A DNA stretch of 64,000 nucleotides from Sulfurimonas sp. HSL3-2 (lineage in GTDB: Bacteria; Campylobacterota; Campylobacteria; Campylobacterales; Sulfurimonadaceae), in contig NZ_CP147917.1 in NCBI RefSeq assembly GCF_039645965.1, positions 372,001 to 436,000 on the forward strand, written 5' to 3'. The notes under the pieces are model-generated. The model saw only the letters and a program-made list of their open reading frames with translations, had not been told where the DNA came from and did no database searches. Below are positions 41,297 through 45,997 of the stretch, piece by piece. Positions within the stretch are counted from its first letter, which is position 1; each line of letters opens with the position of its first letter. The position numbers and the translations under genes were made by a program.

Positions 41297-41672
41297 AAAA
41301 CAGCATCTTATAAAAGAACCGCTGGAAAAAGATGCCCAAAAACTCGCACAATCTATATACAGTACCTATATCGTCAATGAAAAAGATCCTTACATGTACA
41401 TATCTTTAGAAAAACTATATAATCTGTTTAATCTTGATAAGAGTCCGGCCTCTTTAGATAGAATCAATGAGATATTTATGGATCTTACAGAACCCATAGC
41501 TGTAAAAGATTTTGAGTACGAAGGGAAAAAATATCCTGAGAAGATACTCACTTTTTGTACTTTTACCGAAGTTGAAAAAGACGGCGACGGACATATGGAG
41601 ATAGAATTAAACGAGATGTATCTTCATGCATTGAAATACTATATGATAGATCCTTTTTTAGAAGTGAAATAA
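41280..41672 (+). CDS. Soluble protein of unknown function upstream of a DnaQ-like exonuclease
   Basis: 130 aa. ATG at 41280 is chosen because AAGGA lies 5 nt upstream; ATG at 41289 is too far from it. The helix-rich sequence has a possible winged-helix-like middle (residues 35-80) but no signature I can name. It shares one base with the next start (TAATG). One TTACATGTAC variant is at 41390. Confidence 0.65.
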   Translation: MIKMIEKQHLIKEPLEKDAQKLAQSIYSTYIVNEKDPYMYISLEKLYNLFNLDKSPASLDRINEIFMDLTEPIAVKDFEYEGKKYPEKILTFCTFTEVEKDGDGHMEIELNEMYLHALKYYMIDPFLEVK

Positions 41673-42412
41673 TGGCAAAATATATAATTTTAGACACAGA
41701 GACAACAGGTGCGGGCGAAAATGACCGTATTATTCAGCTTGGATATATGGTTTTAGGTAACGGTGATATAGAGGTCCAAAACGAGTTCTGTTCATCAGAA
41801 GTCCCGATCTCTTTTGGGGCTATGGAAGTCCATCATATCACTCCTGATATGATAGTAGACAAGCCAGCATGTAATGAGACAACGGCCTACAAGAGGCTGC
41901 TTGAACTCAACACAGAAGATAACTACATCATCATCCATAATGCTCCCTTTGATATAGGTATGCTTGAAAAAGAGGGGTTTTCTTTAAACATGAAACTCAT
42001 CGATACTCTGAGATGTGCAAAACATGTGTATGAGGATGAAGAAGCGCATAGACTTCAATACTTTCGTTATAAGATGGGACTTTACAAAGAAGAGGAAGCC
42101 GAAGCAAAAAAACTCGGGATCGAGGTCAAAGCTCATGATGCCATAGGTGACGTACTTACGTTGAAGCTGTTTTTGAGCGAACTGAGAAAGTCTGTACAAG
42201 AGAAGTTTATCGGTGAAAACCCTGTTGAGAAGATGGTCTCTTTGACGAAGGAACCTATCTTTATAAAAACATTTAGATTCGGAAAGTACAAGGGCAGAGA
42301 GTTAGCCGCTGTCGCCTTGGAAGATGCAGGATATCTAAGATGGATGCTGAAATCTATGGACCCGCTTGATCCTGACTTGAGATACTCGATAGAAAAAGTG
42401 CTGGTCAACTAA
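41672..42412 (+). CDS. DnaQ-like DEDDh 3'-5' exonuclease with C-terminal FGKYKG domain
   Basis: 246 aa. Exo I is ILDTETTGAGE (Asp/Glu pair), Exo II is IIHNAPFDIGML and Exo III is HDAIGDV (His and last Asp), so all DEDDh catalytic residues are present. Residues 200-246 form a second small domain, FGKYKGRELAAVALEDAGYLRWMLKS, found fused to exonucleases and helicases. It may be a proofreading or repair nuclease; it is not attached to a polymerase gene. Coupled to the unknown gene upstream. Confidence 0.88.
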   Translation: MAKYIILDTETTGAGENDRIIQLGYMVLGNGDIEVQNEFCSSEVPISFGAMEVHHITPDMIVDKPACNETTAYKRLLELNTEDNYIIIHNAPFDIGMLEKEGFSLNMKLIDTLRCAKHVYEDEEAHRLQYFRYKMGLYKEEEAEAKKLGIEVKAHDAIGDVLTLKLFLSELRKSVQEKFIGENPVEKMVSLTKEPIFIKTFRFGKYKGRELAAVALEDAGYLRWMLKSMDPLDPDLRYSIEKVLVN

Positions 42413-42489: not shown

Positions 42490-42495
42490 TATAAT
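42490..42495 (+). promoter_or_regulatory. -10 box 6 nt before ATG (predicted leaderless start)
   Basis: TATAAT, then TATCCT, then the ATG at 42502; no Shine-Dalgarno. Confidence 0.55.
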
Positions 42496-42501
42496 TATCC
42501 T

Positions 42502-43842
42502 ATGAAACTAGATGATCTAAAAAATAAAACTATTTTACTATTTGGTAAGCCGAGAGCCTTTAATCAAGAGGAGTTCGCATATCAGCTTCAAACTCTAAAC
42601 GTTGCTCTGGCAGAGGGATACAGTGATGATGTCTCATACATCGTAGAGGGCAGGCTTATCACTCCGTATGAGCAAAACGAACTGGACAGACTCTATGAAG
42701 AGGGAGTCAGAGACAAGTTCGCAGAGATTGACGAGTTGGAAAAGACCATTATTGAAAATATTGATGCCGATTCGCTGTTGATGAGTCTAAAACTCTCCCG
42801 CGACAGAGACAGACTTCTCTCATATATTAAAAATTCCAAAGTAAGCAACACTCTTTTTTTAAAACTGATAAAACTTTACGACTGGCAAAATGAGGGATTT
42901 TTTGAAAATGATGAGAACCGTGACGTCACCGCTGCACTGATATCGAGATTTTACGAGAACATAGAGAGAAATCATAATGTCCAGTATGCGACGCTGGGAC
43001 TTATGCATCTGGTAGAACAGACTAAAGATGAAAGCCTCATAGAGGCTATAAGCATGCTTTCTCCGATAAAAAACGGCTTTTCAAACTCCTCTTTATATCC
43101 CATTATTTTGGAAATAGCAAAGAATAATGCAACTCCAAACTCTGTTTTAAAGATGCTGCTGAAAAACGGGAATCTGGAGATCAAAAAGATCATAGCCTCA
43201 AAAGATGATCTGGATAAAAATGTGCAAAATATGCTGTTTACTCTTAATGAGGATGAGGTAAATATATCGTTGTGTAAAAATCCGAGTCTTGATGTAGATC
43301 TGGCAAAACAGCTGCAAGAGAGCTATCCTGATATTATCGCAGAAAACATCACACTCGATGATAATTTTTTTGAGTATTTTTTACAGGTCTCTCCTAAGCA
43401 TCTGGCAAAAAACAAAACTTTGACTAAACAGATGCAAGGCAGGCTTTTGTCACTAAGTGACAAAGAGGTAACTGCGTCTTTAGCGACGAATTCAAATATC
43501 GATGAGAATATCGCTGATGAGATATTGCTTCTGGGTGACGGTGAGATCAATCTCTCACTCTTCTCAAACGAGATGGTAAAAGAGGAGAATCTAAGAGAGG
43601 CTTACCTGCATGAAAAGAACTACCTTTCTCTTGCAGGAAACTCGAAGACACCTGAGGATATTTTACGAAAGCTGGCGTATGAAGGGGATATAGAGATCAT
43701 TAAAGCCTTATGTAAAAACCCTTCGACTCCCGTAGATCTTCTGTACGAGTTCAGACTCGATCAAAGACTCGAGCGCTTAGTGAGCCAGAATGAAGCATTT
43801 ACAAATCATATAAAAACAGAGAACATAGGATGGAAAGATTGA
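42502..43842 (+). CDS. BRCT-like N-terminus plus LRV-type helical repeat protein
   Basis: 446 aa, soluble. Residues 8-70 (KTILLFGKPRAFNQEEF to SYIVEGRL) resemble a BRCT fold as in DNA ligases and RFC1. From about 200 to the end are repeats of 25-35 residues of leucine-rich-variant type, clearest in LAGNSKTPEDILRKLAYEGD and ALCKNPSTPVDLLYEF. Such repeats usually mediate protein contacts. It overlaps the MoxR ATPase gene by 13 nt and starts the operon. Suggested role: adaptor or substrate-recognition subunit of the MoxR-VWA pair. Confidence 0.75.
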   Translation: MKLDDLKNKTILLFGKPRAFNQEEFAYQLQTLNVALAEGYSDDVSYIVEGRLITPYEQNELDRLYEEGVRDKFAEIDELEKTIIENIDADSLLMSLKLSRDRDRLLSYIKNSKVSNTLFLKLIKLYDWQNEGFFENDENRDVTAALISRFYENIERNHNVQYATLGLMHLVEQTKDESLIEAISMLSPIKNGFSNSSLYPIILEIAKNNATPNSVLKMLLKNGNLEIKKIIASKDDLDKNVQNMLFTLNEDEVNISLCKNPSLDVDLAKQLQESYPDIIAENITLDDNFFEYFLQVSPKHLAKNKTLTKQMQGRLLSLSDKEVTASLATNSNIDENIADEILLLGDGEINLSLFSNEMVKEENLREAYLHEKNYLSLAGNSKTPEDILRKLAYEGDIEIIKALCKNPSTPVDLLYEFRLDQRLERLVSQNEAFTNHIKTENIGWKD

Positions 43843-44828
43843 AAGCAAGCGAGATAAAAAGTTCCATAGAAGCGATGGTAGAGCAGAAGATACCGACATT
43901 TCTCTGGGGTGCACCGGGGATCGGAAAATCATCTATCATAAGACAGATCGCCGAGCAAAGCGGTATAGGTTTTATAGACCTGCGTCTCTCTTTGATGGAT
44001 CCTACAGATCTAAAGGGGATCCCGTTTTACGATAAGCATGAACACTCAGCCGTATGGGCGGCTCCTTCGTTCTTGCCAAAAGAGGGGGAGGGGATACTTT
44101 TTTTGGATGAACTCAACTCCGCACCTCCTGCGGTTCAGGCCTCCGCATATCAGCTGATATTAGACAGAAAGGTAGGTGAGTATGAGCTTCCATCAGACTG
44201 GGCTATCGTGGCTGCGGGAAACAGAGAGAGCGACAGAGGTGTAGTATATCGGATGCCCTCACCCCTTGCAAACCGCTTTGTGCATCTAGAGATGGATGTC
44301 GATGTGGATGACTATAAAGAATGGGCGTTTAAAAGCGGTATCGATGAACGCATCATCGCATATATCGGGTATAAAAACGAGAACCTTTTTACATTCGATG
44401 CGACAAAAAACGAGAAAAGTTTTGCAACACCGAGAAGCTGGGAGTTCGTGGATAAGGTGATAAAATCATCAATGAACGAAAAACTGCTTTTAGGCAGTGT
44501 CGGCGGAGCGGTCGGACATGATATTGCAGTGGATTTTTTGAGTTTTTGCAAAGTCGCGGACAGACTGCCGAACATCGAGGCGATACTTGCCTCGGGTGAG
44601 GGCGAGTACCCAAGTGATGTGGATGTACTTTACGCTCTGAGTGCAGGACTCGTCTCAAAGACTTTGCAAAATGAGGAGCACGTAGACAATCTTCTTCGTT
44701 ATACTTTAGAACTGCAAAGCGAGTTTGCAGTTATGATAGTTCAGGAATTGCAGCGCTACGGTGTCAGAATGGAGCACTCTCCGGAGTTTACAAACTGGGT
44801 ACGAAAGTTTAGTTACCTCCTCTCATGA
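43830..44828 (+). CDS. MoxR-family AAA+ ATPase
   Basis: 332 aa. Walker A GAPGIGKS (27-34), Walker B GILFLDELN about residue 90, sensor-1 Asn in AAGNRESD and an arginine-finger region in PLANRFVHLE. MoxR ATPases work with VWA proteins to mature or remodel enzyme complexes. The VWA partner follows with a 4-nt overlap, and the repeat protein precedes with a 13-nt overlap, so all three are co-translated. Confidence 0.92.
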   Translation: MERLKASEIKSSIEAMVEQKIPTFLWGAPGIGKSSIIRQIAEQSGIGFIDLRLSLMDPTDLKGIPFYDKHEHSAVWAAPSFLPKEGEGILFLDELNSAPPAVQASAYQLILDRKVGEYELPSDWAIVAAGNRESDRGVVYRMPSPLANRFVHLEMDVDVDDYKEWAFKSGIDERIIAYIGYKNENLFTFDATKNEKSFATPRSWEFVDKVIKSSMNEKLLLGSVGGAVGHDIAVDFLSFCKVADRLPNIEAILASGEGEYPSDVDVLYALSAGLVSKTLQNEEHVDNLLRYTLELQSEFAVMIVQELQRYGVRMEHSPEFTNWVRKFSYLLS

Positions 44829-45997
44829 GCCTACTTGGTAAGATATCTCAGGCAAAAGCCAAACTCTTGGTCGATTACCCCTACTTCGGCACGCTCGCAA
44901 GCAGACTGGAACTGGTAAAAAATGAGAATATCTCTGCATTTTTAAGCGACGGGATGAGGCTGGAATATAACGACGAATATCTGGAGTCTTTAGAGATAAG
45001 CGAGTTGGAGTTTGCTCTTAGTAACGGTGCGATGCATATGGTACTTTCCCATCAAAACCGTAAAAACTCCCGTTACGGATGGCTTTGGCAACTGGCAACC
45101 GACTATGCCATAAACTCTATGCTTGTGCAAAATGGTCTTGATATGCCATATGGTGTGAACTATGATACGCGGTTTGAGGGACTGTATGCCGAGGAGATAT
45201 ATGAGATCCTGCGTGATGAGATAAAAAACGAAGAGTTCAGCGATGACGAGAGTGACGAGACGGGATTCAATGAAGATAATAAACGTCACAACAACAGACA
45301 AAACAGTTCCAATAGCAGCGATAAAAAAGATGAGAATGCACCGAAGATGGAGGTTGAGAACATCGTAGATGAAGAGCTTCTCTCCAAGATAAACGAGAAA
45401 CTGATCGAAGATGAACTTACCCGCGGCGATCTGCCTTTAGGGTTAGAGAGGTTCTTTGATCTGATATTTTCCTCCAAGATAGACTGGAGAGAGGAACTAA
45501 GAGATGCTATCGACCGGTTTTATAAAGATGATTACAGAGTCCTGCCGCCTGCTAAAAAGCTGCTTTATCTCGGTACCTATCTGCCTTCGCTTACAAGCAA
45601 CAGGTTTAAGCTCACTATCGCCATAGACAGTTCTGGCTCAGTAGATGAACAACTGTTAAGCTCATTTATGAGCGAGGTAAACTCGATAATGCTGAACATC
45701 TCAAACTATGAGATAGATATCATAGTTGCGGATGCAAAGGTGCACTCTCACGATACTTTTTATGAAGGGGATGAACTTCTATACACTTTAAAAGGCGGCG
45801 GCGGAACCGACTTTAGGCCTGTCTTTGAGTACATCGAGCAAAATCTGTATGACACCTCTTTACTTCTGTACTTTACAGACCTCGATGGAGTGTTTTATAA
45901 AGAGGAACCGCTTTATGAGGTGGTCTGGATATCGGCTAAAGAGAGTGATGTGCCATACGGAAGGGTCATACTTTTAGATCAGCTGAATAAGACCTGA
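44825..45997 (+). CDS. VWA-like protein with degenerate metallopeptidase domain (DUF2201 type)
   Basis: 390 aa. The N-terminal domain follows the DUF2201_N pattern (WQLATDYAINSML, FEGLYAEEIYEIL), but the usual HExLH is NGAMH (67-71): the first His and catalytic Glu are missing, while His71, His76 and Asp93 remain. An acidic Asn/Ser-rich linker spans 135-175. The VWA-like domain has a MIDAS start DSSGS (268-272) and GGGGTDF. It is probably a non-catalytic binding protein handled by the MoxR ATPase. Overlaps the convergent response regulator gene by 19 bp. Confidence 0.85.
   Translation: MSLLGKISQAKAKLLVDYPYFGTLASRLELVKNENISAFLSDGMRLEYNDEYLESLEISELEFALSNGAMHMVLSHQNRKNSRYGWLWQLATDYAINSMLVQNGLDMPYGVNYDTRFEGLYAEEIYEILRDEIKNEEFSDDESDETGFNEDNKRHNNRQNSSNSSDKKDENAPKMEVENIVDEELLSKINEKLIEDELTRGDLPLGLERFFDLIFSSKIDWREELRDAIDRFYKDDYRVLPPAKKLLYLGTYLPSLTSNRFKLTIAIDSSGSVDEQLLSSFMSEVNSIMLNISNYEIDIIVADAKVHSHDTFYEGDELLYTLKGGGGTDFRPVFEYIEQNLYDTSLLLYFTDLDGVFYKEEPLYEVVWISAKESDVPYGRVILLDQLNKT

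Follow-up and report, generated by a model that had tools for sequence, protein, structure and literature searches.

Pairs of a MoxR-type AAA+ ATPase and a VWA protein are widespread, and how they choose their clients is mostly obscure. MoxR systems have been described as maturation chaperones (PMC3893208), and in the NorQ–NorD structure (PMC13036017) a finger of the VWA partner reaches into the MoxR ring, and hydrolysis of ATP twists this partner. Jumbo phages are known to carry a related pairing, of MoxR with a metallopeptidase–vWA protein (PMC7824862). In the window studied here, a 64,000-nucleotide stretch of the Sulfurimonas sp. HSL3-2 genome, such a pair is joined to a third gene (g1) predicted to encode an LRV arm headed by a BRCT domain, an unusual architecture for bacteria. 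In this lineage of sulfur-oxidising Campylobacterales, a conserved third protein with recognisable interaction domains has become fixed beside the ring and the metallopeptidase domain has lost its active site, so that the triad offers a testable case of client selection.

Layout, linkage and inheritance of the triad

All three genes lie on the + strand, and their open reading frames agree with the positions and overlaps (13 nt between g1 and the MoxR gene, 4 nt between the MoxR and VWA genes) given in the initial annotation. The leading gene, g1 (42502..43842), encodes the 446-aa BRCT–LRV protein that we propose as an adaptor, and the fetched loci contain 132 distinct homologues of it. It is followed by the gene for a MoxR-type AAA+ ATPase of 332 aa (43830..44828), which scores above the cut-off for Pfam AAA_3 (7.8e-8), and by that for a 390-aa protein (44825..45997) combining a DUF2201 metallopeptidase-like region (Pfam DUF2201_N, 1.2e-30; DUF2201, 4.9e-23) with a VWA domain. 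Promoter and terminator scans of the locus gave no useful excess over shuffles, and an Rfam search returned no match there. A TATAAT lies seven bases 5' of the g1 ATG (42490-42502), which the promoter scan did not flag, and there is no evident ribosome-binding site; going by these letters, a leaderless transcript for g1 is possible.

The three genes are linked, occur in the same genomes and evolve under purifying selection. In g1, MoxR and VWA alike, dN was far below dS in every comparison that allowed dS to be estimated (dN 0.11 and dS 1.33 when g1 was compared with that of a congener, G148). Given that the same arrangement also recurs through Campylobacterales, the triad is not a product of chance. 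Among 249 Campylobacterales genomes, 58 carry g1 (G105 only partly), and these belong to families f1, f4, f6, f7 and f22. MoxR of the A type, a class which for both MoxR and VWA was assigned by hand, has 57 carriers, of which 55 also have g1 (p=6e-49, a value that ignores relatedness). Both genes are thus present in 55 of the 60 genomes having either, and several of the exceptions fall at contig ends or in incomplete genomes. The A-type VWA gene accompanies g1 in 54 of the 249 genomes. Within loci, MoxR starts at most 300 nt downstream of g1 in 112/125 testable cases, with overlaps of 13 or 10 nt in 64, which bears out the suggestion that this is a recurring three-part MoxR system; VWA comes no more than 1.5 kb after in 49/67 loci. 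In several Sulfurimonas and f6 genomes VWA is found elsewhere and g1–MoxR are kept together. It is g1 that stands apart in further genomes, G006 and G118 among them, other families have some loci with g1 away from both partners, and G192 has kept VWA with g1 and MoxR both absent. An apparent g1–MoxR fusion in G117 (L021 447-2930, an 827-aa ORF) was rejected, the junction being a run of N at an assembly gap.

In the g1 tree, f1 and f4 are monophyletic and f6/f7 nearly so, and the tree largely follows taxonomic families, which suggests that inheritance has been mostly vertical. The architecture of g1 is uniform over the aligned homologues. Among the matches listed from a search of a phylum-wide sample, none came from outside Campylobacterales. 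A genome-collection scan with a 10-row g1 alignment returned 80 loci, and all records named to taxon were Campylobacterales, mostly Sulfurimonas and Sulfuricurvum. Judged by these searches, g1 is a Campylobacterales family.

Domain architecture of the three proteins

As a single-sequence query against Pfam, NCBIfam and the PDB, g1 alone gave nothing useful and no family. The AlphaFold2 model of the full protein (mean pLDDT 91.5) comprises a β-α-β-β-α-β-α N-terminal unit and a helical solenoid of about ten two-helix repeats. In the predicted models, residues 1-88 (42502..42765) have the BRCT fold β1-α1-β2-β3-α2-β4-α3. When the N-terminal 89 residues were modelled separately (pLDDT 89.3), the 50 PDB matches listed by Foldseek were all BRCT domains or BRCT-containing entries, the best being RFC1 (2ebu, E 3.8e-4, prob 1.00, TM about 0.6), and the whole g1 model likewise matched the RFC1 BRCT domain with prob 1.00. 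Aligned by hhalign with LigA BRCT domains from Campylobacterales, the g1 N-terminal profile scored 86.7%, with 30 column-shuffled decoys at <=1.9%, and the Pfam BRCT model was matched by 3/30 g1 homologues (best 0.056). Support for a BRCT domain is therefore strong at the level of predicted fold and modest at the level of sequence. Conservation of g1 beside MoxR and BRCT similarity of its N-terminus, the two points on which the initial annotation had made its proposal depend, were both found.

A Ser/Thr–Gly signature followed by a Lys marks phosphate-binding BRCT domains, although not all BRCT domains. In g1, Gly15 is invariant, the preceding position 14 is L, F or V in 29/29 sequences, and the α2 position has no Lys and is mostly E or Q. 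Since the Thr/Ser and Lys of the phosphate site are missing, we infer that the g1 BRCT more likely mediates protein-protein contacts than recognises phosphate or DNA ends.

The BRCT domain is followed by a family-specific helical middle (residues 89-198, 42766..43095), recognised from the alignment and model by LLMSLKLSxD..., FENDENRDV and an invariant R149, and then by an LRV/ARM-like solenoid (residues about 199-440, 43096..43821). The solenoid consists of roughly ten repeats, each of two helices and ~25 aa, and its LAxNPSTPxxIL motifs are common to thirty aligned homologues. Pfam LRV_2 was matched by 24/30 of these and LRV by 15/30 (best 1e-12); the window copy searched alone had no Pfam LRV match. 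With Foldseek the whole model matched 1lrv with prob 1.00 and ARM/importin-alpha solenoids weakly. Taken from its repeats and its predicted structure, the C-terminal arm is an LRV solenoid, as had been read from the window. It shares this fold with the LRV protein 1LRV, from which g1 differs in having an added BRCT domain and only two cysteines, which are far apart. Short LRV-only proteins of about 175-190 aa occur in genomes without full-length g1 (L086 5929-6456, L087 4809-5375, L106 3779-4354).

In MoxR, the key residues of Walker A (GAPGIGKSS, 43908..43934), Walker B, sensor 1, the Arg finger and sensor 2 vary little or not at all among 129 distinct homologues. The MIDAS of the VWA domain (DSSGS, 45626..45640) is similarly preserved, its DxSxS, T and D positions being invariant in 105/105 aligned sequences, of which 104 are from Campylobacterales loci and one is from Allomeiothermus. 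The N-terminal part of the same protein carries a degenerate HExxH site, NGAMH (residues 67-71, 45023..45037), with N in place of the first His in 98/105 of that alignment; paralogue B of this genome has NCVMH and paralogue C HTLLH. Outgroup DUF2201 proteins, ten of them encoded on plasmids and four in phages (Actinomycetota, Deinococcota, Cyanobacteriota, Betaproteobacteria and phages of these groups), keep HExxH in 14/14, and so the loss in the triad looks derived. The proposal that the VWA partner is peptidase-dead thus holds and, given the lack of catalytic residues, its metallopeptidase-like domain most likely binds the client or keeps structure rather than cutting.

A putative remodelling machine and the alternatives

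We favour a model in which the triad is an ATP-driven, chaperone-like protein-remodelling machine with g1 as its dedicated substrate adaptor, and give it a probability of about 0.6. By analogy with NorQD, MoxR would form a hexameric ring on which the VWA protein docks, turning ATP hydrolysis into mechanical work on the client, and the MIDAS metal site would serve as a protein-protein contact. The dead peptidase domain may be a binding or structural part of this assembly. The g1 protein would be a third subunit dedicated to this assembly; with its curved LRV solenoid and BRCT head it may bring in or orient the client, or anchor the ring on it. It is the domain type of g1 that suggests this role, and a regulatory or inhibitory function of the LRV arm is the alternative. 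The model is favoured because the MoxR motifs and MIDAS are intact, g1 is linked to MoxR, the genes co-occur, and g1 has predicted BRCT and LRV folds. It gains further from the observation that g1 and MoxR usually stay joined where VWA is elsewhere and are both missing from G192, and from the parallels offered by NorQ–NorD, the MoxR maturation chaperones and an LRV-containing cluster in Allomeiothermus. The separation of g1 from its partners in some loci, and the existence of paralogous pairs in the same genome that have no g1, speak against it.

A narrower form of this model, in which g1 selects a metalloenzyme or respiratory complex for maturation, has precedent in NorQD (NO reductase) and CoxD (CO dehydrogenase). 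It also draws on the two further MoxR–DUF2201-VWA pairs, B and C, of this genome (G000; 1537360-1539497, L051 7319-9513, and 1498485-1500519, L052 7390-9562). Among Campylobacterales genomes, nifH is present in 11/12 carriers of pair B and 17/18 of pair C, lying 14-105 kb from the pairs in most genomes checked (211 kb for one C pair), and it is possible that B and C are a nitrogenase-linked MoxR system. The g1-linked set, however, shows no association with nifH (15/58 observed, 12.6 expected), for which reason a nifH link of the g1 system was rejected, and no recurrent metalloenzyme-maturation gene was recognised beside this set, so that we regard the narrower form as doubtful. Far less credible is that the triad is a biological conflict (defence) system. 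In the MoxR–vWA ternary conflict systems a third partner (VMAP, iSTAND, FtsH or a beta-propeller) is accompanied by variable effectors (PMC7159879, Kaur et al. 2020), and the triad resembles these in its three-gene layout, with a further gene beside MoxR and vWA. However, its third gene is unrelated: the only domains found are BRCT, LRV and DUF2201, with none of the four partner types and no effector. Nor does it show architectural turnover, g1 being of one build throughout a family inherited largely vertically, and its recurrent neighbours look like housekeeping genes. PADLOC gave no meaningful match to the three genes (weak generic ATPase matches for MoxR, none for VWA, and 0.022 to Cas11f for g1), and the triad fits no known defence system.

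It had also been suggested that the machine acts on DNA or repair substrates. In one version its targets would be repair or replication complexes on DNA, with the BRCT domain directing it to a repair protein or DNA end and ExoX and Pif1 working alongside; in favour of this, the best fold matches of the g1 N-terminus are RFC1-type BRCT domains. An ExoX-like DEDDh exonuclease gene (41672..42412, + strand; Pfam RNase_T 1.3e-17, ExoX-like_C 2.5e-7) lies just upstream in the window; in this genus and in Sulfuricurvum it has the same orientation as g1 and is no more than about 1.3 kb from it. The linkage is, however, clade-restricted, being confined to a section of one family, and several further Sulfurimonas loci have the gene on the opposite strand, kilobases from g1. 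A Pif1-like helicase gene lies downstream of VWA on the same strand in Sulfurimonas and Sulfuricurvum loci. In ten loci of the Sulfuricurvum type (L036, L090, L099, L152, L154, L156, L162, L175, L177, L180) the two genes overlap by 8-26 nt at the VWA stop, and they remain linked in loci with VWA away from g1–MoxR (L053, L063, L066). Against this, Pif1 occurs in 134/249 genomes, 88 of which have no g1; family f4 retains the triad but lacks the helicase almost throughout, and the copy in this genome is at 1,809,713, about 1.4 Mb away. We therefore rejected Pif1 as a core part of the system on distribution, and treat both ExoX and Pif1 as leads rather than parts of it. Together with the absence of the phosphate-site residues from the g1 BRCT, these distributions leave the suggestion of a DNA or repair substrate weak and unsupported, and we consider remodelling of repair or replication complexes unlikely. 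Slightly less probable still is the composite proposal of a bacterial AAA+ remodelling machine that, equipped with a purpose-built BRCT–LRV adaptor and with the pseudo-peptidase as co-chaperone, would act on a DNA-maintenance complex; if true, such a client would be a use of MoxR–VWA not described before.

Relation to described MoxR–VWA systems

The triad shares intact AAA+ ring motifs and an intact VWA MIDAS with NorQ–NorD, RavA–ViaA and other MoxR–VWA chaperones. It differs from them in that their VWA proteins are of a different build, they have no BRCT–LRV third subunit and their clients are known. The jumbo-phage pair (PMC7824862) and the plasmid and phage DUF2201 VWA proteins are like the triad in that MoxR is paired with a VWA protein that is metallopeptidase-like in its N-terminal domain, but all 14 phage and plasmid proteins checked retain HExxH and no BRCT–LRV gene was present in the neighbourhoods inspected. 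A literature search on DUF2201–MoxR with LRV or BRCT found no description of a BRCT–LRV partner, in keeping with the view that g1 is not a described MoxR partner. MoxR and metallopeptidase–vWA pairs are therefore already known, and what is new is the BRCT–LRV partner and the dead peptidase.

Eight neighbours checked as third genes beside other plasmid DUF2201 pairs contained no LRV or BRCT. The one parallel found is in Allomeiothermus silvanus pMESIL01 (L210 6893-10477), where an LRV protein of 10 repeats lies directly beside a DUF2201 VWA protein and MoxR, as in the triad. Unlike in the triad, this LRV protein has no BRCT head, the peptidase motif is intact (HELEH) and the order is LRV–VWA–MoxR. 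On the strength of this single case, LRV arms may have joined MoxR–VWA pairs more than once.
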